From Kyrpidia spormannii (GTDB lineage: Bacteria > Bacillota > Bacilli > Kyrpidiales > Kyrpidiaceae): 64,000 nt of DNA. The stretch is taken from the NCBI RefSeq assembly GCF_002804065.1, contig NZ_CP024955.1, forward strand, positions 310,001 through 374,000, written 5' to 3'. Both the position numbers and the translations under genes were made by a program. Numbering within the stretch: position 1 is the first letter of the stretch; each line of letters opens with the position of its first letter. The notes beneath the pieces were generated by a model that saw only the letters and a list, made by a program, of their open reading frames with translations, was not told the DNA's origin and searched no databases. Positions 2,740-43,062 of the stretch are shown here, in pieces.

Positions 2740-3107
2740 ATAGACAGAGCCTGGTTATCACGGTGCGAAATTTGGTGCTTGATCGTTGGGAACTCTTCAT
2801 ACAGATCCTGTACGAATCCTCCTTTTTCCAAAATCTGACCATGCCCAAAGGCGAAAACCGCATGACGGCGTGCGAAACCCTGGCTGATAATATTAAGAAA
2901 AAGAAGATCAAATTGACGGATTTACATACCCATGAGTCTTTTCAAATGGTATGGGAGTTGCTGGGGCAGGAACGGATTCAGAAGATCTTCTACAGAACTG
3001 AGGCCTCACGCGCACGTTTTCGCGAGGCATGGGAAGAAGCGGATCCGCAGTTGTTTTATCACGAATATTGGAAACCTGTTGCAGAACTGTTCCGCGGGTA
3101 CTGTCCC
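2694..3107 (+). pseudogene. Left fragment of a HerA-like (DUF87) ATPase, cut by the IS256-family element
   Basis: An open frame starts abruptly at the DruA junction (GEFTIPINRILKGLNRQS, then VLDRWELFIQILYESSFF) and runs to VAELFRGYCPV at the left end of the IS. It has the character of the middle of a HerA/DUF87 ATPase and lines up with the right-hand fragment at 4638-5215, which is clearly such a protein. I infer one gene interrupted by the IS, with its own N-terminus (Walker A) already lost. On its own this piece is not diagnostic. Confidence 0.45.
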
Positions 3108-4637
3108 GTCAAGTGGTGTAAAATCACCATGTGTGTCAAGAGTGTGACAGGGTTGCCTTTGTCCCCGCCTGGAAGTGTATCGCCCGTCGTCGCTCCGTCA
3201 AGGGACGCTGCGCTTGACCTGTCGGTCACCCTTGACCTCGCTCCTTCCGGGCGAGTATCGGCAGCTAGGGGACAAAGCCAAGGTTTGCGTGTGGCATACA
3301 CGCCCCCCCTTCAGGCTTAGACTTACTTCTGTAGCACGGATGCGGACGCGAGCAGGGCCTGATCCGGCTTCAGTTTCGCCATCGATTCGAGGCTGAAATA
3401 CCGGCGGGACACCATCCACTCCTCATGTTGTTCCTGCAGGATGGATCCCATCAGTCGCAGCACGGATTCCCGATTCGGGAAGATCCCGACGACGTCCATC
3501 CGCCGTCTCATCTCACGGCCCATCCGCTCCAGTGGGTTGGTGGAGCAGATCTGCCGCCAATGCTCGCCAGGCAGTGCCATGAAGGCCAATACGTCCTCCT
3601 CCGCCGCCTCCAGGATCTGCATGGCCTTCGGGAACTTGCCCCGCAGTTCCTCGACCACCCGGCGCAGCTGTCCTCGGGCCGCCTCCTGGGTGGGCTGGGC
3701 AAAGATGGTCCGGATGATCGCCGCCACCATCGGCTGCTGTTTCTTCGGCACTTGGCTCAGGACGTTGCGGAGGGTATGCACTTTGCACCGCTGCCACGCA
3801 GCGCCTGTCAGCACTTCTGAAATCGCCTGCCGCAGGCCAAGGTGGGCATCACTGATGACCAGCCTGACTCCCCGAAGTCCACGCTCTTTCAGCCCTCTGA
3901 GAAACTCGGTCCAGAATGCCCCGTCCTCACTGGTCCCGATGTCAAACCCCAGCACCTCACGCTCCCCAGTATCGGTCACCCCGATGGCGATCACAAAGGC
4001 CATGCTCTGGACCCGCCCGCCTTCCCGCACCTTGGGGAAGGTGGCGTCCAGCCAGACATACGGATATTCCCGTTCCAGCGGCCGCCCTTTGAACTGTTGG
4101 ATGTCCTCATCCAGCACACAAACGAGAGACTTCACTTTTGCTGATGCCATCCAGCCCAAGCGCCCGAACCACATCGTCCACCTTCCGGGTGCTGACCCCA
4201 TTGACATAGGCCTCCTGGACCACGGCGGCTAGGGCCTGTTCCGCCCGGCGGCGTGGCTCCAGAATCGACGGGAAAAAGCTTCCCTGGCGAAGTTTGGGGA
4301 TCTTCAGGTCGAGAGTCCCAAGACGAGTATCCCACTCCCGTTTCCGGTAGCCATTGCGTTGCGTCCTGCGTTCCTCAGTGCGCTCGTAAGGGTTCGCGCT
4401 GACCTTTTGCGTGGCCTCGGCATCGATTAAAGATTGGGCGAACATCTGCATCAGTTCACGCAAGAAATCGATCTGTTCCTCACCCTGGATCTTGCGAATC
4501 CACTCAAGAACTGCGAAACTGTTGAGAGAAGCCATCGTTGCGTGACCTCCTACTGGTTTGGTTTCCACACTCTAGTAGACACGCACGATGGCTTCCTCGT
4601 CAATTGTGGAGGGCCAAATTTACACCACTACTTGAGA
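3108..4637. mobile_element. IS256-family insertion sequence, transposase frameshifted
   Basis: The ends carry related terminal sequences: GTCAAGTGGTGTAAAA at the left (about 3108) and ATTTACACCACTACTTGAGAC at the right (to about 4640), which pair as imperfect inverted repeats differing by a 3-base insertion. The length of about 1.5 kb fits the family. I see no clear 8-9 bp target duplication. The element separates two parts of a HerA-like pseudogene. Confidence 0.8.
3323..4568 (-). pseudogene. IS256-family (mutator-type) transposase with one frameshift
   Basis: The N-terminal part (4568 to 4107) has an ATG after a GGAGGT-like site and the typical QRNGYRKREWDTRLGTLDL / IPKLRQGSFFPS stretch, ending at SKSEVSRLCAG. 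The C-terminal part (4207 to 3323) continues with LDEDIQQFKGRPLE in another frame, so a single frameshift lies in the overlap near 4107-4140. DDE residues are visible: WLDATFPK, VISDAHLGL and the Glu in TNPLERMGREMRRR. Apart from the frameshift it looks complete. A programmed shift is not usual in this family, so inactivation or a sequencing error is likelier. Confidence 0.88.
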
Positions 4638-5215
4638 CTCTAACGTTCCGCGCGAAAATCGTCCTCAGGCAAGACCGATTGAAAAAGCCCTGGGATGGCT
4701 GTTGAACCTCGATGTTGAGCAACGTCCGATTTTGATTATAGATCTGTCCAAAGAGCATGTCGAAGGCTTGTTGTAGAACGAGGACATTCAAATGCTGGTC
4801 ATCAAACGGCTGTTGGAAGTTTTGAATCAAGCAGCAACGGGGCGCGGGGTGCGGGACGTCCTCGTGGATGCGGCGCGTACCACTCGCAAATATGGGCTGG
4901 GATGGCTGTTTATCAGTCAAACCCTTTCAAGCCTTCACACCGAGATCCTTCAACAGTTGCGCGTCTTCTTTTTCGGGTTTGGATTGGGACTTTGGTCAGG
5001 AATTTCAGGCGCTGCGTCAGCTCGTTGGTTTCGCCGGGCCGGCTTTGGGTCTCTATCAGCTTTTCCGGGATCCCCACTCGGCTTTTGATACCGCCAGCCG
5101 CCAATATTCGTTCATGACCATTGGCCCGGTGAGCCCGCTCTCCTTTGCCGGTACGCCTCTTTTTTTTCAATGCATTCAACACAGTCGAAGCCTTTTTGGA
5201 AGCGAACAACTTTAG
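4638..5215 (+). pseudogene. Right fragment of a HerA-like (DUF87) ATPase, with stop and frameshifts
   Basis: Reading from GACTCTAACGTT, the frame gives EKALGWLLNL, then QRPILIIDLSKEH, a TAG in frame, then VIKRLLEVLNQA, DAARTTRKYGLGWLFISQTL and LRVFFFGFGL. It shifts near 4985 to FGQEFQALRQLVG, LYQLFRDPHSAFDTASRQYSF and GPVSPLSFAGTP, and degrades after 5160. The RTTRKYGLGW.FISQ stretch is the arginine-containing C-terminal core of HerA/DUF87 hexameric ATPases, which pair with nucleases in repair and defence. One stop and at least two frame changes show it is dead. Confidence 0.72.
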
Positions 5216-5425
5216 AGTGTAACACCATCAGCCGGCCGGACCGTTACCGCAACGATGCGGGCGTCTGTTCAACCGTAAGTTAGCTTGTACACCTAAACTC
5301 CTTTTCTTTGTTTACGGCGTTGCTGTCGTAATGTTTATAGATACCGTAGACAACTTGACCAAGTCCATTTGTGGTTGCGCAAAGACAAGTAACTGTATGA
5401 TGTCGATTTATCTCCCCTGATTATG

Positions 5426-5600
5426 GAAACAGGAGCTGTCCGCGTGGGTGTGCGCCGGGCGGGAAGCGGTGCGGCGCCGGGAACTGGAGCGGGCAGTCTA
5501 CCCAGGTGTTCGCCGTGGAACGCACCTGCCGGGAAATGGCCCTGTGCAGGTTTGCAGTGCCTTGCTCCAAATCGTTCGCAACGTCTATTGTGATTTTGAA
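5426..5600 (+). pseudogene. Internally deleted copy of an EAL-domain gene
   Basis: The bases from ATGGAAACAGGAGCTGTCCG repeat the start of the EAL-domain pseudogene at 9908. The two copies agree to about GGAGCGG, then this copy jumps about 150 bases to the segment encoding the stretch after the EAL motif (GCAGTC.ACCCAGGTGTTCG) and continues to the DMALCRFA-equivalent. Identity then fades. The joint lies at a short shared GCGG. Confidence 0.75.
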
Positions 5601-5612
5601 TTATTGAAAGGA

Positions 5613-5978
5613 TCAAGGATCCCAGTAGTGAATGGGATTACCGTGTGACCGGACGGGAGGAGGACTGCCGACATATTTATCGAAAATGGGATCTCCTCGT
5701 TCAAGCATCTTTCCTTCGAATAGGCACCGACCATCATGACATGGAACAACATCTTGAATTTCCATAGCTCCACGCACCGTATTCCCGGCAACGAAAAGGA
5801 CGTACTGTTCTCCACGGGCTCGTTCGCGGTTGACCCTCTAACACGCTCGACCTGCTTGGTAAAGATCCTGTGGCGACATGCCATTCCTCCACCCGACCAT
5901 CGTACGGTCAAGACAGTCTGTCTCAGGGTTTACTTCCTCGGCATTTTTAAGGTAAATCAAGATCATCGTTCCCACCAT
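5613..5978 (-). pseudogene. Small protein gene (121 codons) with one in-frame stop
   Basis: On the minus strand the ATG at 5978 opens a frame with only one TAG, at 5838-5840, before its end at 5613. It reads MVGTMILIYLKNAEEVNPE, GWRNGMSPQDLYQAGRAC, stop, RVNRERARGEQYVLFVAGN, TVRGAMEIQDVVP and so on. The middle (R-A-x-x-x-x-Y-V-L-F-V-x-x-x-x-V-R-G-x-x-E-I) resembles PUA/ASCH-like or EVE-like small domains; this is weak. Such continuity around a single stop suggests a recently broken real gene. Confidence 0.5.
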
Positions 5979-6339
5979 CCTTAATTGAGAAATCCCCGAG
6001 GTGAGCTTTGTTATCGCCAGACTCCACCCCTGAAAACGATTGTATCGTTCGAATTGGTGCGTTTCAACCAATATTATCGCACCCCACTTTGCAGGAACTC
6101 AAGGCGTCTCGTGGACATATGTCCTGTAAAGCTACTACTGCGAAGCGAACGAACGCCAATTGGTATAATAAGATTGGATCAACAGATGCGCTGCGACGAT
6201 CTCCGGCCGGCTGCCGATCGCCCTGGAATCAGCGGCTCCGCAACAAGCCGCGTGTTGAGCGAAGCCCCCGTGATGGCGTATACTGCCGTCAAAACCGTAC
6301 AAATGAGCGAAACCAATCGGGAGAGGGCGGGTGCGGGGA
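5979..6339. other. Gene-free stretch upstream of the galE pseudogene
   Basis: No convincing coding sequence in either direction. A TATAAT occurs at about 6163-6168 (TTGGTATAATAAG), but no good -35 box at the right distance was found. GAGAGGGCGGG at 6331 precedes the galE start and could be its ribosome-binding site. Confidence 0.4.
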
Positions 6340-35643: not shown

Positions 35644-36711
35644 GTGGTTCATGTGCGTTCGTTTATGCCCGATGTCATGGGAAGGTGGCCTGTCAGCAAA
35701 GGCATTGTGGTGCTGACCAACCGGATTGCCGAGTACCGCGGAAAGCAGGCGTTGTATCAGCGGCAAATCCCGCAGGTGCTTGATACGTTGCGGGAGTATG
35801 CCGTCATTCAAAGTACGGAGTCGTCGAACCGAATCGAGGGCATCGTTGTGCCGACCCGAAGGTTTACGTCCATCATGCGACACGCATCTGAGCCGCAAAC
35901 CCGGTCGGAGGCCGAGATTGCGGGGTACCGTGACGTGTTGAGGATGATTCACGAGCATCATGAACACATGCGGTTAACCTCAAATTTGATTCTCCAATTG
36001 CACCGGGATCTGATGAAGTATGCCGGTAAAGGCGGGCAATGGAAGATGGCGGACAATTATATCGAAGAGGTTGCCCCGGATGGTGAGCGGAGGATTCGTT
36101 TCCAAACCGTACCGGCATGGCAAACACCAGGCGCAGTGGAAGAGTTGTGCCGCCTGTTTCTCCTGGAACTGCAGCGCGGAGAATGGCCGGACGTTCTGCT
36201 CATCGCCGCCTTTGTCCTGGATTTCTTGTGCATCCATCCCTTTGCTGATGGGAATGGACGCATGGCGCGGCTTTTGTCCCTTCTGTTGCTTTATCAGAGC
36301 GGGTACGTCGTGGGACGATACATCAGTTTGGCACGGGTGATCGAAGATACGAAGGATCAGTATTATGACACATTGTACCGGTCATCGCAGGGTTGGCATG
36401 AGGGTGAACATGATTTAACGCCTTGGATGGAATATTTCCTGACCATGCTGCTTGAAGCGTATCGGAGATTCGAGCAGCGGGTGGGGGACACTGAGGCGGC
36501 GAAGCATCGGGGATGGAAGAAGGAACGAATTCAAAACGTGGTTCACGGGTTTGTGGCGGATTTTAGCATTTCTGACGTGGAAAAGCTGTGTCCCGGAATC
36601 AGTCGGTCAATGGTTACGCGTGTTTTGAACGAATTGAGCCGCCAAGGTGTCATCGAGTGCATTCAAAAAGGGCGCCATGCCCGCTGGAAGCGATGCGGCC
36701 AGGGCAACTGA
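35644..36711 (+). CDS. Fic family protein (self-inhibited AMP-transferase type)
   Basis: About 355 residues; start GTG 35644, GTG 35653 or ATG 35665, none with a strong ribosome-binding site. AVIQSTESSNRIEGIVVP is the N-terminal inhibitory helix motif (S/T-x3-E-G/N type), CIHPFADGNGRMARLLSLLLL the catalytic Fic motif with all key residues (HPFxDGNGR). The C-terminus (EKLCPGISRSMVTRVLNELSRQGVIECIQKGR) is a winged-helix domain. Fic enzymes attach AMP to target Ser/Thr/Tyr residues; the intact inhibitory motif means it is normally kept off. The target is unknown. It sits alone, without a separate FicA-like antitoxin. Confidence 0.93.
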   Translation: MVHVRSFMPDVMGRWPVSKGIVVLTNRIAEYRGKQALYQRQIPQVLDTLREYAVIQSTESSNRIEGIVVPTRRFTSIMRHASEPQTRSEAEIAGYRDVLRMIHEHHEHMRLTSNLILQLHRDLMKYAGKGGQWKMADNYIEEVAPDGERRIRFQTVPAWQTPGAVEELCRLFLLELQRGEWPDVLLIAAFVLDFLCIHPFADGNGRMARLLSLLLLYQSGYVVGRYISLARVIEDTKDQYYDTLYRSSQGWHEGEHDLTPWMEYFLTMLLEAYRRFEQRVGDTEAAKHRGWKKERIQNVVHGFVADFSISDVEKLCPGISRSMVTRVLNELSRQGVIECIQKGRHARWKRCGQGN

Positions 36712-36979: not shown

Positions 36980-38155
36980 TCAACTCCCTCCGCATCCGCC
37001 TCCGCAACTGCTGCCGCAGCTGCTTCCGCAGGAACTGCCGCCACAAGAGGAGCCGTTGTGACCCGGGGAGTGGTGGTGGGAATCGCCATCCCCCCAGTAG
37101 TACCCCCAGGATCCGCAGGAGCTGCCGCCGCCCGAGCGGTCCCGTTTTGCAGCGGCGGCCGTCGCAGGCGATGCGGAGGCCATTCTTGCGGCAAACTGTT
37201 CCGGTTCGGCCAAGGAAAAATAAACCATCGAAGCGGCGCCGGCGGCCAGGGCTGGGATGGGCGATTTTTTGGCGGTTCGGCGCCCCTTCGTGCTTCCCGA
37301 ACTCCCGGCGAGCTTTATTTTTGCCTGACTGATCTGGTCCCGCAGGGTGTTGACCAGCCAATGGGCGTAAGGAGTGTCTGGACGGAAATATTTTTCCTTC
37401 AAGGCTGAAAACTCGCTTTTCTCAAACTCCTGAATGAGATCGGCGGGCAAAGGATAGCGGAAAAATCCGTTCCATGCGAACCAACTGTAGGGGAGCGGAT
37501 GGAAAATCTGGTGATAGGTCCAATCGAACCACGCCCTCTCCCCGGGGTTGAGGATGGGATCGGGATTCGGGACGTGATGGATCATCCGGCCGGCAAATCG
37601 GGTACAAAAATCCTCGTATTCCAGGGTGAACAGGAGCATGGTGTGCCACACTTCGTCCACCGTCTGGCTGTACATGGGCGTGTAGCGGAGGATGGCCGAC
37701 ATGAGGAAAAAGCGTTTGAGCTCGAATAAGGCCCAATCGAATTCCTCGGCTGTCCACTCCGGGTGATCTTTGAGGCAACGATTTCTGACCTTCTCCACAT
37801 AGGCCGGATCCAGGGACGCGGCCAATCGTTCCGCTAAAGGTTCCAAGGGCGTGTCTTTTTGCAGATCCAGACTTTTCGGGATGGTCCCCCAGTCGGGCCG
37901 AGAGTGGGTGCGGGAACTCTCCTGGGTGCGGCCATTCCCGGAAACCGGGGCGCGGTTGGTCACCGGTGTTTTGCGAATCCCGGGACTTCTCCGGTTAGCG
38001 CCCAAGATCCCTATGGTGGCAAACCACAGGATCGGCAACAGGATGTCGCCCGCCACGGTGACGATTCGATTGTCGCGAAAGGGGCCTGTCATGACGTAGA
38101 TGAGACCGATGGTGATCAAGGCCGCAGCCGCAAGAATGCCGATTCGCTTTGCCAC
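36980..38155 (-). CDS. Membrane protein with D-x-x-W-H domain and Cys/Gly/Ser-rich tail
   Basis: A 391-residue protein. GTG start six bases after GGGGGG. Two hydrophobic segments at the N-terminus (IGILAAAALITIGLIYVM; ILLPILWFATIGILG). The central domain (residues 100-270) contains YSQTVDEVWHTMLLFTLEYE, MIHHVPNPDP and WFDWTYHQIFHPLP, a His-rich helical fold like the glycine-rich-domain (DUF1399-like) proteins with a D-x-x-W-H motif. A hydrophobic/charged stretch follows, and the C-terminus is DGDSHHHSPGHNG, then SSCGGSSCGSSCGSSCGGGC with GGS, seven Cys in about 25 residues. Such tails resemble those of TIGR04222-type membrane proteins. Function unknown; metal binding or cross-linking is conceivable. 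The promoter region and first codons are duplicated at 39242-39400. Confidence 0.65.
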   Translation of the reverse strand: MAKRIGILAAAALITIGLIYVMTGPFRDNRIVTVAGDILLPILWFATIGILGANRRSPGIRKTPVTNRAPVSGNGRTQESSRTHSRPDWGTIPKSLDLQKDTPLEPLAERLAASLDPAYVEKVRNRCLKDHPEWTAEEFDWALFELKRFFLMSAILRYTPMYSQTVDEVWHTMLLFTLEYEDFCTRFAGRMIHHVPNPDPILNPGERAWFDWTYHQIFHPLPYSWFAWNGFFRYPLPADLIQEFEKSEFSALKEKYFRPDTPYAHWLVNTLRDQISQAKIKLAGSSGSTKGRRTAKKSPIPALAAGAASMVYFSLAEPEQFAARMASASPATAAAAKRDRSGGGSSCGSWGYYWGDGDSHHHSPGHNGSSCGGSSCGSSCGSSCGGGCGGS

Positions 38156-38262
38156 CGAATTCCCCCCACTGTGAGGATCGACTTCCTAGCCTCTAACACC
38201 AGTGTACCGCCACGGCATAATTCCCGTAAACCCTAGAGATCTTTACGTTACACCTTATATGC
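38156..38262. repeat. Direct repeat copy 1 (upstream region of the Cys-tail gene)
   Basis: About 105 bases starting in the GTG region and running through CCACTGTGAGGATCGACTT, CTAGCCTCTAACACCAGTGT and CGCCACGGCATA recur at 39301-39400 with about 90 percent identity in the same orientation. The repeats bracket the HTH/MazF module. Confidence 0.9.
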
Positions 38263-38321: not shown

Positions 38322-38741
38322 ATGGAGAAGCTGCTGACTCCTGAGCAGGTGGCTGAGCACTTGGTTGTGGCTGAACGTACAGTCTACGAATGGCTCCGGA
38401 CCGGGCGCCTGCGAGGGATCAAACTCGGGCGCCTGTGGCGGGTGCGTGAGAAGGACTTGGAGGCTTTCCTCCAGGGCGAGGAAGAGGAACCTTTGTCTTT
38501 CGAGGATCCGGCGGCTGCACGCCGTGGGCTGGAGGGCGTGAAGGGCAGCCTCGTGGTGCCTTGGAAGAAGCTGCCCAAAAAACGTGAGGCAACGGAAGAG
38601 GACGGCGCATGGCTGGAATCGGACCTGGGCGGGGAACTTCCACCTTATGACTGGGGACCGGAAGGCCCGCCGAAGGGAAAGCCGGTGCGGTACGTGCCGG
38701 GCGTAGGTCCTGTGGTTGAGGGCGGAAAGCATGATCGGTGA
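38322..38741 (+). CDS. Excisionase-type HTH protein, probable antitoxin of the MazF-like toxin
   Basis: A 139-residue protein. Residues 4-50 (LTPEQVAEHLVVAERTVYEW, LRTGRLRGIKLGRLWRVREKDLEAFL) form a winged MerR/excisionase-like DNA-binding domain. The rest is acidic and Pro/Gly-rich (EEEEPLSFEDPAAARRGLEG; ELPPYDWGPEGPPKGKPV), probably disordered, and could wrap around the toxin. It overlaps the MazF-like gene by 11 bases. The palindrome just upstream fits autoregulation. HTH-Xis plus PemK/MazF pairs are known but much less common than MazE/MazF. Confidence 0.85.
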   Translation: MEKLLTPEQVAEHLVVAERTVYEWLRTGRLRGIKLGRLWRVREKDLEAFLQGEEEEPLSFEDPAAARRGLEGVKGSLVVPWKKLPKKREATEEDGAWLESDLGGELPPYDWGPEGPPKGKPVRYVPGVGPVVEGGKHDR

Positions 38742-39096
38742 CCGCCTCGAGCCAGGAGACATTCTCTTGGTTCACCTGCCTGGGCACGTCCCGCCGGGAC
38801 ACGAGCAGGAGGGGGTTCGCCCGGCTGTCGTGCTTGGCGTGCCGCCGGAGCCCGTCCGCTTTGGCGTGGTCCTCGTTGCACCGGCGACGACGAGCGCCGG
38901 GCAGTGGGCCAGGAGGAATCCCCTGCTTTACCCACGCTTGCCGGCCGGCGCCGGCGGACTTCGTCGGCCATCGACCATCCTCTTGGACCAGGTGCGAGCA
39001 CTCGACCTACAGCGGACGGTGGAGTACCTGGGTACGCTGGCCCCGACGGAACTGGAGACGATCCGCAGGGGACTGCGCGCGCTGCTGAATCTGTGA
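38731..39096 (+). CDS. PemK/MazF family toxin
   Basis: A 121-residue endoribonuclease-type toxin. ATG at 38731 after GAGGGCGGA. EPGDILLVHLP is the N-terminal strand, GHEQEGVRPAVVLGV carries the conserved E-x-G-x-x-R-P core, FGVVLVAPATTSAGQWARRN the T/S catalytic region, and RPSTILLDQVRALDLQRTVE the final strands; LAPTELETIRRGLRALL is the closing helix. It is translationally coupled to the HTH gene. The protein is longer than E. coli MazF and rich in Arg/Gly. Confidence 0.9.
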   Translation: MIGDRLEPGDILLVHLPGHVPPGHEQEGVRPAVVLGVPPEPVRFGVVLVAPATTSAGQWARRNPLLYPRLPAGAGGLRRPSTILLDQVRALDLQRTVEYLGTLAPTELETIRRGLRALLNL

Positions 39097-39220: not shown

Positions 39221-39241
39221 CGTTCCGGTGCGGCCGAGGGT

Positions 39242-39400
39242 CTTTTGCGAATCCCGGGACTTCTCCGGTTAGTGCCAAGATTGCCGATTCGCTTTGCCAC
39301 CGAAATCCCCCCACTGTGAGGATCGACTTTCTAGCCTCTAACACCAGTGTGCCGCCACGGCATAGTTCCCGGAAACCCCAGAAGTCTTTACGTGGGCTTA
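39242..39400. repeat. Direct repeat copy 2, including a deleted start of the Cys-tail gene
   Basis: GCGAATCCCGGGACTTCTCC (also at about 37974) is followed directly by the start-codon region of the 36980 gene in minus orientation, with some 130 bases of coding sequence missing between, and then by the upstream region matching 38156-38262. The minus-strand frame reads VAKRIGNLGTNRRSPGIRK. It is thus a duplicated and internally deleted 5' end. Confidence 0.88.
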
Positions 39401-39483: not shown

Positions 39484-40436
39484 GATGGTGGGCCGGCTGA
39501 CCCCCGAGCAAAAGCAGATGGAGCGGACGTACCGGGCGTATCGGGCCATCGGGGCGGTGTTGAATTTTAGCTGCACCCCCTACCTGTTGGACAACATCCC
39601 GCGTCAGGGAGAGGTGGTCGCCCTTTTCCGAGTCCAGCGCCACCCCTTATGTGAACGCCGTCTACGGGGCCCGGAGCAACCGGGAGTCGGCCCAGAGCGC
39701 GCTGTGCGCCGCGGTGGCCGGCCGGGTACCGGAGTACGGGCTACTTCTGGCTGAGAACCGCCGGGGGCAAATCGTGGTGGACGTCAAGGCCGAGTTGTCG
39801 AGTGATTTTGACTACCAACTGTTGGGATATGCTGTGCCGAAAAAGATCGGCCACCGGATCCCGGTATTCGTGGGCATCCCCGATACGGCCTCCCCGGAGG
39901 CACTCATGAACCTGTGTGCCGAGCTGAACACCGCCGGGGCCGTGCCCATGTTTCACATAGTCGGCCTCACCCCCGAGGCACCGACTTTGGAAGCGGCCCT
40001 GGGCGGTCGGGAGCCCGTGGACACCGTGACCGTCACAGACCGGGACTTGCTGGAGGTTCGGGAACAGATCTCCCAAGCCCCGGGTCAGGTAGATTTCGTT
40101 CTTCTCGGCTGCCCCCACCTCAGCCTGCGCCAGCTGCAGACCATCGCCGAGCTGGTGCGGGGGAAGAAGCTGCGGGTGGAGCTGTGGATCAACACCTCGG
40201 CGTATACCCGGGAGGTGGCGGCCCGGATGGGCCTGGTGGACGTTATCGAGAGGGCGGGGGGGCACGTGCTTCAGGACACCTGCGTGGACCAGCCGATCTG
40301 GAAGCACCTGGAGGGTAAAACCGGAGCCACGGAATCGCCCAAATGCGCCTATTACACGAAACGCAGGCAGATGAACTTTGTGATCCGGAGCCTGGAGGCC
40401 TGTGTTCAGGCGGCGATCGAGGGGGTGATCGCATGA
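39484..40436 (+). pseudogene. Aconitase X catalytic (large) subunit, truncated and frameshifted
   Basis: The readable gene starts at GRLTPEQKQMERTYRAYRAI and GAVLNFSCTPYLLDNIPRQG, shifts frame near 39620, and continues VNAVYGARSNRESAQSALCA, VAGRVPEYGLLLAENR, PVFVGIPDTASPEALM, FVLLGCPHLSLRQLQTI and WINTSAYTREVAARM, to the stop at 40436. CTPYL and CPH hold cluster/active-site Cys residues of the AcnX family (DUF521). The first 60-100 residues expected for the family are missing. Type I AcnX consists of this and the swivel subunit that follows; bacterial members characterised so far dehydrate cis-3-hydroxy-L-proline. As it stands it should be inactive. Confidence 0.82.
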
Positions 40437-40861
40437 CGGCACCCCAAGCTGCGGAGGCCTTTGCGTGCCACAAAATCTCCGGGGGCGTGGCATCCGGGGA
40501 AGTTCTGTTTTCCCAGGATGATATCTGCTTTTATCTGTGCGACCCGGAGACGGGCAAGGTCATCGAGGACGGCCACTGTCTTTACGGCGTCAGCGTCTCG
40601 GGGAAGATTTTGGTCTTCCCCAGCGGGAAAGGGAGCTCCGTCGTCCAGACCGACGGGCTATACCAGTTGGCCATGCGGGGGAATGCCCCGAAAGCGGTGG
40701 TGGTCCAGCACCCGGACACCGTCCTCGTGGCGACCTGCATCATTCTCGACGTGCCCATGGTCGATCGGGTGGAGGCCGCTTTTTATGAACGGGTCAAGAC
40801 CGGTGATGCCGTTCGGTTGGACGCGTCGAGCGGAGTGATCCAACTCATCGGGAGAGCGTAG
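40433..40861 (+). CDS. Aconitase X swivel (small) subunit, DUF126
   Basis: A 142-residue protein whose ATG overlaps the stop of the large subunit. CHKISGGVASGEVLFSQDDI, GHCLYGVSVSGKILVFPSGK GSS and APKAVVVQHPDTVLVATCIIL DVPMV are typical of the swivel domain; the P-S-G-x-G-S-S motif binds the substrate carboxylate. The reading frame is whole although its partner is broken. A RpiR regulator follows two bases downstream. Confidence 0.88.
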   Translation: MTAPQAAEAFACHKISGGVASGEVLFSQDDICFYLCDPETGKVIEDGHCLYGVSVSGKILVFPSGKGSSVVQTDGLYQLAMRGNAPKAVVVQHPDTVLVATCIILDVPMVDRVEAAFYERVKTGDAVRLDASSGVIQLIGRA

Positions 40862-41782: not shown

Positions 41783-41862
41783 CATTGAGCGGACAGAGGA
41801 AGAGCGGCTCTTTTGGCGAATATGCGTTTGCGAGACTCGAACATTCGGGGTATCTTAGAACC

Positions 41863-43062
41863 ATGAAAATTTTCAAGTCCTTTCGATTCCGTTTGGAACC
41901 CACAACCGAACAATCCCAGTGCCTCACCCGTTACCGGGGATGTGCGCGGTTGGTCTGGAACAAGGCGCTGGCCTTGCAAAAGGGGCGACTGGAGGCCGGG
42001 TACCCTTTACTCTCGTATGAGGAGCTTGCCCGGCTCCTGACACTCTGGAGACACAGCGAGGAATACGGGTTTTTGGCCAACGCCCCTGTGCACCCTTTGC
42101 AGTGGACGCTCAAGTTCCTGGATCGGGCAATCCGGGCGGCGTTTGACAAGTCCAACCCGGCGCGCTTCCCGACGTTCAAGAAAAAGAACCGGGACGAGGC
42201 GGGCCTGCGCTTTCCGGACCCGAAACAGATCAAGCTCGACCTGTCGACCAAGGATGCGGACGGGCGGTGTGTCTTGCCGAAGGTTTTCCTGCCCAAGATC
42301 GGGTGGGTGAAGTTCCGCAAGTCCCGGACCATCGACGGGACGATTCGGAATGCCACGGTAACATGGCAGGCCGGGCACTGGTACATCTCTTTCCAGACGG
42401 AGATCGACGTGCCGGAGCCGGTCCACCCGTCGGAGTCGGCTGTGGGGATCGACCGGGGAATTGTGCATTTTGCGGCGTTGTCGGACGGCACGTTTGTCGA
42501 TGCGCCGGGGTGGTTCCGGCGGCATGAAAAGAAACTGGCTTGGGAAATGCGGAAGCTGTCGCGGAAGAAAAGGTTCTCGCGAAACTGGCAGAAACAGAAG
42601 GCCAGGATTCAGCGTCTTCATGCGCATATCGCGAATGCCCGGCGGGATTTTCTGCACAAGACCTCCACGGCCATCAGCAAAACCCACGCGATGGTGTTTG
42701 TGGAGGATTTGCGGATCCAGAACATGAGCCGGTCGGCCAAGGGGACGAGGGAGAATCCGGGGAAGAACGTGCGGGCGAAGAGCGGGCTGAACAAAGCGAT
42801 CCTGGACCAAGGGTGGTCGATGTTCCAGACGTTTTTGGAGTACAAGCTCCACTGGTCGGGAGGCTGGCTGGGGACCGTCCCGGCCCCGTACACGAGCCAA
42901 AGATGCCCGGTACCGGAATGCGGGCATGTGAGCAATGCGAATCGGCCGAGGCAATCGACATTCCGGTGCGAGAGGTGCGGGTATGAGGGCAATGCCGACA
43001 CAGTGGGAGCGATGAACATTTTAAGGGCTGGACTGGCCCGGATCGCCTGTTCTCCGGTGTAG
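41863..43062 (+). CDS. tnpB: IS200/IS605-type TnpB (RNA-guided nuclease family)
   Basis: About 399 residues from the ATG at 41863 (MKIFKSFRFRLEPTTEQSQC); upstream codons from 41785 are not family-like. The RuvC active site is complete: VGIDRGIVHFAAL (Asp), MVFVEDLRIQNM (Glu) and the C-terminal CGYEGNADTVGAMNIL (Asp). The zinc finger is CPVPECGHV...CERCG. TnpB uses an RNA made from the 3' end of its gene and the right end of the element to cut DNA. No TnpA (Y1 transposase) is present, so this is a tnpB-only element that depends on a helper. Confidence 0.93.
   Translation: MKIFKSFRFRLEPTTEQSQCLTRYRGCARLVWNKALALQKGRLEAGYPLLSYEELARLLTLWRHSEEYGFLANAPVHPLQWTLKFLDRAIRAAFDKSNPARFPTFKKKNRDEAGLRFPDPKQIKLDLSTKDADGRCVLPKVFLPKIGWVKFRKSRTIDGTIRNATVTWQAGHWYISFQTEIDVPEPVHPSESAVGIDRGIVHFAALSDGTFVDAPGWFRRHEKKLAWEMRKLSRKKRFSRNWQKQKARIQRLHAHIANARRDFLHKTSTAISKTHAMVFVEDLRIQNMSRSAKGTRENPGKNVRAKSGLNKAILDQGWSMFQTFLEYKLHWSGGWLGTVPAPYTSQRCPVPECGHVSNANRPRQSTFRCERCGYEGNADTVGAMNILRAGLARIACSPV

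Follow-up and report, generated by a model that had tools for sequence, protein, structure and literature searches.

The protein encoded by the gene studied here is anchored in the membrane and belongs to an unnamed family, whose members combine a conserved helical D-x-x-W-H domain with a disordered tail in which the cysteines are conserved and, in many cases, regularly spaced. The best explanation overall, to which we give a probability of about 0.43, is that of a membrane-tethered and predicted cytoplasmic tail, carried by a GRDP-like domain and acting as a putative thiol- or metal-binding site. We prefer it because it best fits both the conserved cysteines and the predicted topology. The family is of interest on three counts. 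First, a domain of unknown function, present from plants to phages, appears to be paired with a cysteine-rich tail, which offers a handle on DUF1399/GRDP proteins. Second, the pairing hints at the portion of MctA, a protein of 232 aa, that could be active in microcin Mcc1229. Third, the envelope-stress response of some Bacillaceae gains a membrane protein that is probably under sigma-W control.

Protein layout and predicted membrane topology

The gene lies in the window, i.e. the whole stretch of 64,000 nucleotides of Kyrpidia spormannii DNA that was analysed, and a search of its own genome returned a single match to its product. The features of the gene and of its surroundings are collected in Table 1. 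With AlphaFold2, block pLDDT values were mostly above 90 over the domain (about residues 90 to 285), and the domain modelled alone reached a pLDDT of 93.6 and a pTM of 0.91. In the tail, residues 343 to 379 fell below a pLDDT of 50, and the last five ten-residue blocks were at 42-48 and 40. The membrane protein with a D-x-x-W-H domain and a cysteine-rich tail described by the initial annotation is borne out by the reading frame and by the structural model, which adds the two N-terminal helices.

Table 1. Coordinates, within the window, of the gene, of the parts of its product and of neighbouring features
Feature	Position	Strand	Basis or remark
Whole gene, 391 aa, GTG start, stop included	36980..38155	-	open reading frame
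Two N-terminal hydrophobic helices (residues 2-23 and 29-53), then a basic stretch; membrane anchor	37997..38152	-	AlphaFold2
D-x-x-W-H domain, mostly helical (residues 90-285), distant GRDP-like relative	37301..37888	-	AlphaFold2, alignment
D167-x-x-W170-H171 motif	37643..37657	-	invariant in 65 aligned sequences
Disordered Ser/Gly/Cys tail (residues 343-391)	36983..37129	-	sequence, AlphaFold2
Degraded copy of the gene's 5' end and upstream region, in two pieces, internal part missing	39239..39393	-	sequence comparison
HTH_17 and PemK/MazF-like toxin pair, between the gene and the 5' copy	38322..39093	+	family matches
Fic protein gene	35644-36711		neighbour
IS605 OrfB	41785-43062		farther off

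The repeated tail is also as first described, with five SSCG units (starting at residues 345, 369, 374, 378 and 382) and a GGGCGGS terminus. Its six cysteines are arranged as C347, a His-rich linker, then C371, C376, C380, C384 and C388; the stretch DSHHHSPGHNG, with HHH at 360, lies between the first and second SSCG units. To place this end among its neighbours, 368 ORFs of the window (at least 60 aa) were ranked by the number of cysteines in their last 60 residues. Three of them exceed the 391-aa protein in terminal cysteines (9-10). Serine, glycine and cysteine nevertheless make up 39 of its 60 terminal residues, by far the most among the ten most cysteine-rich ends of the 368, the others having 16 to 26.

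A genome-contig scan yielded 187 confirmed relatives, and all homologue counts given here refer to the best 80 of these 187, with start codons picked by script. A first scan of genome contigs and the viral contig scans gave no confirmed relative. Nearly all of the best 80 come from Bacillus, Paenibacillus and allied genera, together with one Chryseobacterium and one Pseudomonas entry, probably mislabelled. Among 65 aligned sequences (64 of the 80 kept homologues plus the window protein), the invariant residues of the domain include D167, W170, H171, Y180, H193, H194, P196 and R207.

An N-terminal transmembrane segment is found in 76 of the best 80 of 187 homologues, and a second one above threshold in none of the 80. 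The mean net charge is +3.6 after the segment against +0.2 before it, and is higher after than before in 73 of the 80. As there is more positive charge after the segment and no second segment, the domain and the tail are predicted to be cytoplasmic. Of the options raised by the initial annotation, lipidation of the tail is for this reason unlikely, and so is cross-linking if it were to take place outside the cell. There is moreover no lipobox cysteine after a signal peptide: the first cysteine of the window protein is residue 127, inside the domain. A bacterial lipoprotein and surface cross-linking were rejected on these two grounds.

Conservation of the tail and local history of the gene

At least four cysteines lie within the final 60 residues of 78 of the best 80 of 187 homologues, the two with fewer being L029 and L081, and the mean number is 5.6 in the last 60 residues versus 0.75 in the remainder of the protein. 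The exact end C-x2-C-x3-C-x2-stop occurs in 40 of the 80, and a spacing of 4 or 5 between the first two cysteines of the last 70 residues in 59. The commonest ends are CGGGCSS (n=31) and CGSGCSS (n=10), and 21 of the 80 end in GGGGD. The window tail is off the commonest spacing, its last three cysteines being spaced 3-3 instead of 2-3 and its first two lying 23 apart. In 294 aligned pairs of tails, chosen at 55-85% domain identity, residues were kept at rates of 0.92 for Cys, 0.70 for Ser, 0.70 for Gly and 0.17 for His, a contrast that is partly built in, since the tail alignment favours matching cysteines. The count of cysteine spacings is independent of that alignment. Judged from these comparisons, the tail cysteines are under selection, the His-rich stretch is a local feature of the window protein and is not conserved, and the number of SSCG units in the window reflects local repeat growth on a conserved cysteine tail.

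The initial annotation had left room for a tail that arose by local repeat expansion only, with homologues lacking it. As a sole explanation this is ruled out by the 78 of 80 homologues (best 80 of 187) that keep a cysteine-rich end, often at fixed spacing; expansion does account for the SSCG count. We consider it very improbable that the tail is an extension that is neutral or driven by repeats. In its favour, SSCG units vary in number among these homologues, with none in 14, one in 55, two in 8, three in 2 and four in 1, and are most numerous in the window protein, with five; mixed SSC and SSSSC units are also found. For the complete tail, however, the conservation across genera of the cysteines and, in 40 of the 80, of their exact spacing speaks against it, the extra SSCG units alone being still explicable in this way. 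The tail is thus probably a working part rather than a stray repeat, because most relatives keep the cysteine-rich end and because such ends recur on distant plasmid and phage relatives (see below), one of which is needed to make a microcin. As a side observation, a 98-aa ORF (L033:13917-14213) copies only the C-terminal helix and cysteine tail of a family member located some 5 kb away.

The family is patchily distributed, with carriers in 36 of 298 genomes of the class, in 6 of the 61 genomes searched as relatives (own genome counted) and, using a smaller profile, in 6 of 398 genomes of a phylum sample. In the genome of a sister species (G001), the matching 18.9-kb stretch keeps only both ends of the gene, the middle being gone; the PemK module has no match in this stretch. 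This distribution and the sister species with gene ends only indicate that the gene is dispensable.

The duplication of the 5' end reported by the initial annotation is real but partial: positions 38131-38248 match 39276-39393 at 92%, and 37965-38002 match 39239-39276 at 95%. It probably arrived together with the HTH_17-PemK module, since on the sequence this module sits between the gene and the degraded copy. As for the mobile modules said to flank the gene, the HTH_17-PemK pair, the Fic gene and IS605 OrfB are indeed nearby, but only IS605 OrfB is a transposon gene. Farther along the window, at 39651-40861, aconitase X frames were noted: the large-subunit part starts at profile position 145 of 400 and overlaps the swivel-domain ORF, and is possibly a 5'-truncated copy.

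Distant relatives and microcin Mcc1229

Searches with Pfam and NCBIfam returned for the window protein no family beyond a chance-level match. In particular, PF07173 (GRDP-like) gave no match at E up to 1, and it is absent from the families listed for the 65 members. The PF07173 profile was silent in the own genome and equally in 14 controls, hence uninformative there. Two distant relatives with tails, from Cupriavidus P-10 and Rhizobium CC1099, scored 21.0 and 16.5 bits against PF07173 (E 5.9e-4 and 0.014), below the gathering cut-off of 22.7. With Foldseek on a viral library, a Harvfovirus GRDP-like protein ranked second of 48 (probability 1.00, E 0.077, TMt 0.49) behind a Terrestrivirus protein (E 0.036), none of the matches having an E of 0.001 or better. 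Among the solved structures listed as matches (Foldseek, VIA-align), none was significant, whether the complete model or only the domain was compared. The plant GRDP-like domain carries the D-x-x-W-H motif as well. A distant relationship between the D-x-x-W-H domain and the GRDP-like (DUF1399) domain is probable, and GRDP-like (PF07173/DUF1399) may be the nearest named domain of the window protein itself. PHROGs gave nothing for the window protein. An anti-phage system was rejected: PADLOC gave nothing for the window protein either and, on the phage protein mentioned below, one weak PDC-M01B match (E 8e-4, residues 160-223), located outside the D-x-x-W-H motif.

Beyond the Bacillales, the profile of the family aligned by hhalign (99.4%, E 6.4e-22) with that of 13 distant relatives from E. 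coli, Agrobacterium, Rhizobium, Rhodococcus, Streptomyces, Aureibacter and Klebsiella phage 05F01. The pairing of domain and tail is also found in E. coli MctA, Klebsiella phage 05F01, Agrobacterium, Rhizobium and some Streptomyces. Out of 20 distant relatives, hand-picked from the plasmid and phage matches, 11 have at least three cysteines in their last 40 residues. The other 9 have fewer: four none (Aureibacter, Vibrio, Streptomyces zaomyceticus and NBC_01136), two a single one and three two. The phage-borne member, gene_95 of Klebsiella phage 05F01 (L008:4821-5681), has a long SCSSSSC tail.

On E. coli plasmid p0.1229_3, the homologue gene (3094-3792) is followed by genes at 3831-5423 (ABC transporter) and 5426-6319 (cupin protein). 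By their coordinates these correspond to mctA, mctB and mctC in the strain table of PMC8853679, where the deletions of the three genes are given as 3084-3792, 3831-5423 and 5426-6319. According to this source, Mcc1229 activity needs all three of mctA, the ABC transporter gene mctB and the cupin gene mctC, and mctA-like ORFs are noted to have cysteine-rich C-terminal regions. The class of Mcc1229 is called unclear in a review (PMC10233263). On pHUSEC41-3, the counterparts of the two partners match ABC_membrane/ABC_tran and JmjC_2, and the homologue shares 36% identity over 84 residues with the window protein (pairwise BLASTP, E 1e-12). The arrangement of mctA homologue, ABC transporter and JmjC/cupin gene was seen on small E. 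coli plasmids (L111:3094-6319, NZ_CP028323.1; L007:391-3592), with 25 matching Escherichia plasmid records. These data suggest that MctA consists of a D-x-x-W-H domain and a short cysteine-rich core.

Because of MctA, the strongest rival to our reading is a RiPP-like precursor, in which the tail would be the core, to be modified, cut and exported by trans-acting enzymes, and the D-x-x-W-H domain would be its folded leader or carrier. Besides MctA, a homologue with a cysteine-rich end that is needed together with MctB and MctC for microcin activity (PMC8853679), two loci point that way. On Agrobacterium plasmid pAtCFBP6625a (L099:2121-6264), two copies with tails lie in tandem and in line with genes for a glycosyltransferase and an ABC exporter, a set that could be an operon for making a peptide. 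In Streptomyces NBC_01136 (L097:1307-3609), a tail-less D-x-x-W-H protein stands beside a 178-aa protein with a cysteine-rich tail and a protein that is cupin-like as judged by eye from its sequence; the locus looks as if domain and tail had been split.

Several observations nevertheless make this reading possible but unlikely for the window protein. The latter is membrane-anchored, and no modification enzyme or exporter was seen among the ten neighbouring window ORFs scanned, where the initial annotation had proposed to look for modification enzymes and TIGR04222-like proteins. YcaO, MNIO and JmjC_2, the three families searched for, were not found in the own genome, controls being positive; a peptide modified by any of these three was consequently rejected there. 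No widely shared neighbour that would name a pathway was found in the 80 loci (best 80 of 187). Finally, the conservation of the tail across genera is not expected of competing, diversifying cores. The earlier proposal of a precursor peptide thus finds no backing in the own genome, and is suggested by MctA.

In one Paenibacillus clade of 8 loci (L068, L072, L076, L079, L083, L085, L086 and L094), the gene has a pair of ABC transporter genes immediately upstream, the closer of them at a distance of 31 nt. Outside this clade, ABC ATPases recognised by motif numbered 4 of 281 near the gene and 5 of 488 far from it, with a motif that, in the clade itself, missed one transporter of each pair. An ABC-exporter partnership as a general rule was therefore rejected for the 80 loci (best 80 of 187), being confined to one Paenibacillus clade.

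A broader proposal, which we regard as unlikely, is that a single design, a GRDP-like domain presenting its own cysteine-rich tail, is common to plants, bacteria, plasmids and a phage. Where the protein is soluble and encoded in an operon (MctA of Mcc1229, the Agrobacterium proteins, perhaps those of Streptomyces), its tail would become a secreted modified peptide, with the domain as folded leader; the Bacillales form would be membrane-tethered, keep its tail inside and, in some of its members, be under envelope-stress control. In the literature searched, with partial coverage, we found no report tying GRDP-like domains to cysteine tails and to RiPPs or sigma-W.

Probable control by sigma-W in some relatives and comparison with known systems

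A sigma-W-type promoter, TGAAAC-N15-17-CGT, was found upstream of 10 of 68 loci, counted over a longer region and after crude dereplication of the 80, versus 10 of 817 neighbouring ORFs, called mechanically (p 4e-7). A relaxed form of the pattern, chosen after looking, gave 15 of 68 versus 10 of 817. The p-values are optimistic, because several of the relaxed hits (for example L019, L044, L062, L084 and L087) look like near relatives. Of 20 regulator patterns tried upstream of the 68 loci, sigma-W stands out (0.15 versus 0.01); a sigma-F-like pattern gave 0.06 versus 0.03, a CymR-like one 0.01 versus 0.01, and the others were at or below background. No candidate came out of a dyad search. Sigma-W thus probably activates the gene in some of the Bacillaceae-type relatives. 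The window gene itself lacks the sigma-W-type promoter, and a simple scan found neither a sigma-70-like promoter on the gene's strand nor a terminator.

Another reading takes the tail as a docking or assembly tag: low-complexity S/G/D/C ends would bind a common membrane partner, and the cysteines would stabilise the assembly under stress. The GGGGD end of the 21 homologues (best 80 of 187) is shared by 9 of the 13 readable YxzE-like proteins (15 loci), which have one transmembrane segment and an S/D/G tail, and yxzE is placed in the core of the B. subtilis sigma-W regulon (PMC3498285). Furthermore, 8 of the 65 members match YxzE weakly (hmmscan, E up to 0.1, best E 0.024). These matches are however of low complexity, YxzE tails have few or no cysteines, the sigma-W pattern lies upstream of only 1 of the 13 YxzE-like proteins read, and YxzE was not found in the own genome. 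We hold this reading to be quite unlikely. The window protein itself had no match to PF25184 (YxzE-like, cut-off 40 bits) at E up to 1.

With the preferred reading, that of a tethered thiol- or metal-binding tail, domain and tail would lie on the cytoplasmic face of the membrane, where the cysteines would be reduced. The tail cysteines would form a putative soft-metal or thiol-redox site, held beside the conserved D, H and H of the domain. In those Bacillaceae-type relatives where the gene is probably driven by sigma-W, its product would help the cell to cope with envelope damage or membrane-active peptides.

Four known systems resemble the window protein in part. The YxzE-like putative bacteriocins (PF25184) share with it the N-terminal transmembrane segment, the basic stretch, the S/G-rich end and, in part, the GGGGD terminus; they differ by the lack of a D-x-x-W-H domain and by few or no cysteines. 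The TIGR04222 proteins, putative MNIO substrates, are likewise membrane proteins with a C-terminal Ser/Gly region interspersed with cysteines (PMC12452194), whereas the window tail is predicted to be cytoplasmic rather than periplasmic and MNIO was not found in the genome. Identity with TIGR04222 was rejected: NCBIfam gave no family for the window protein at E up to 1, and the own genome has a sub-cut-off match elsewhere only.

The plant GRDP-like proteins AtGRDP1 and AtGRDP2 resemble it by a domain joined to a C-terminal glycine-rich region with cysteines, which in AtGRDP2 is a DUF1399 domain followed by a glycine-rich domain with interspersed cysteines (PMC4299439). Unlike them, the window protein is membrane-anchored and has no PF07173 match of its own, and AtGRDP2 differs further by an additional RNP motif (PMC4299439). 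Lastly, MctA shares with the window protein a homologous domain and a cysteine-rich C terminus, but it has no visible N-terminal hydrophobic anchor, is Fur-regulated (PMC8853679), and shares its operon with genes for an ABC transporter and a JmjC/cupin protein, whereas the window gene has neither partner beside it.
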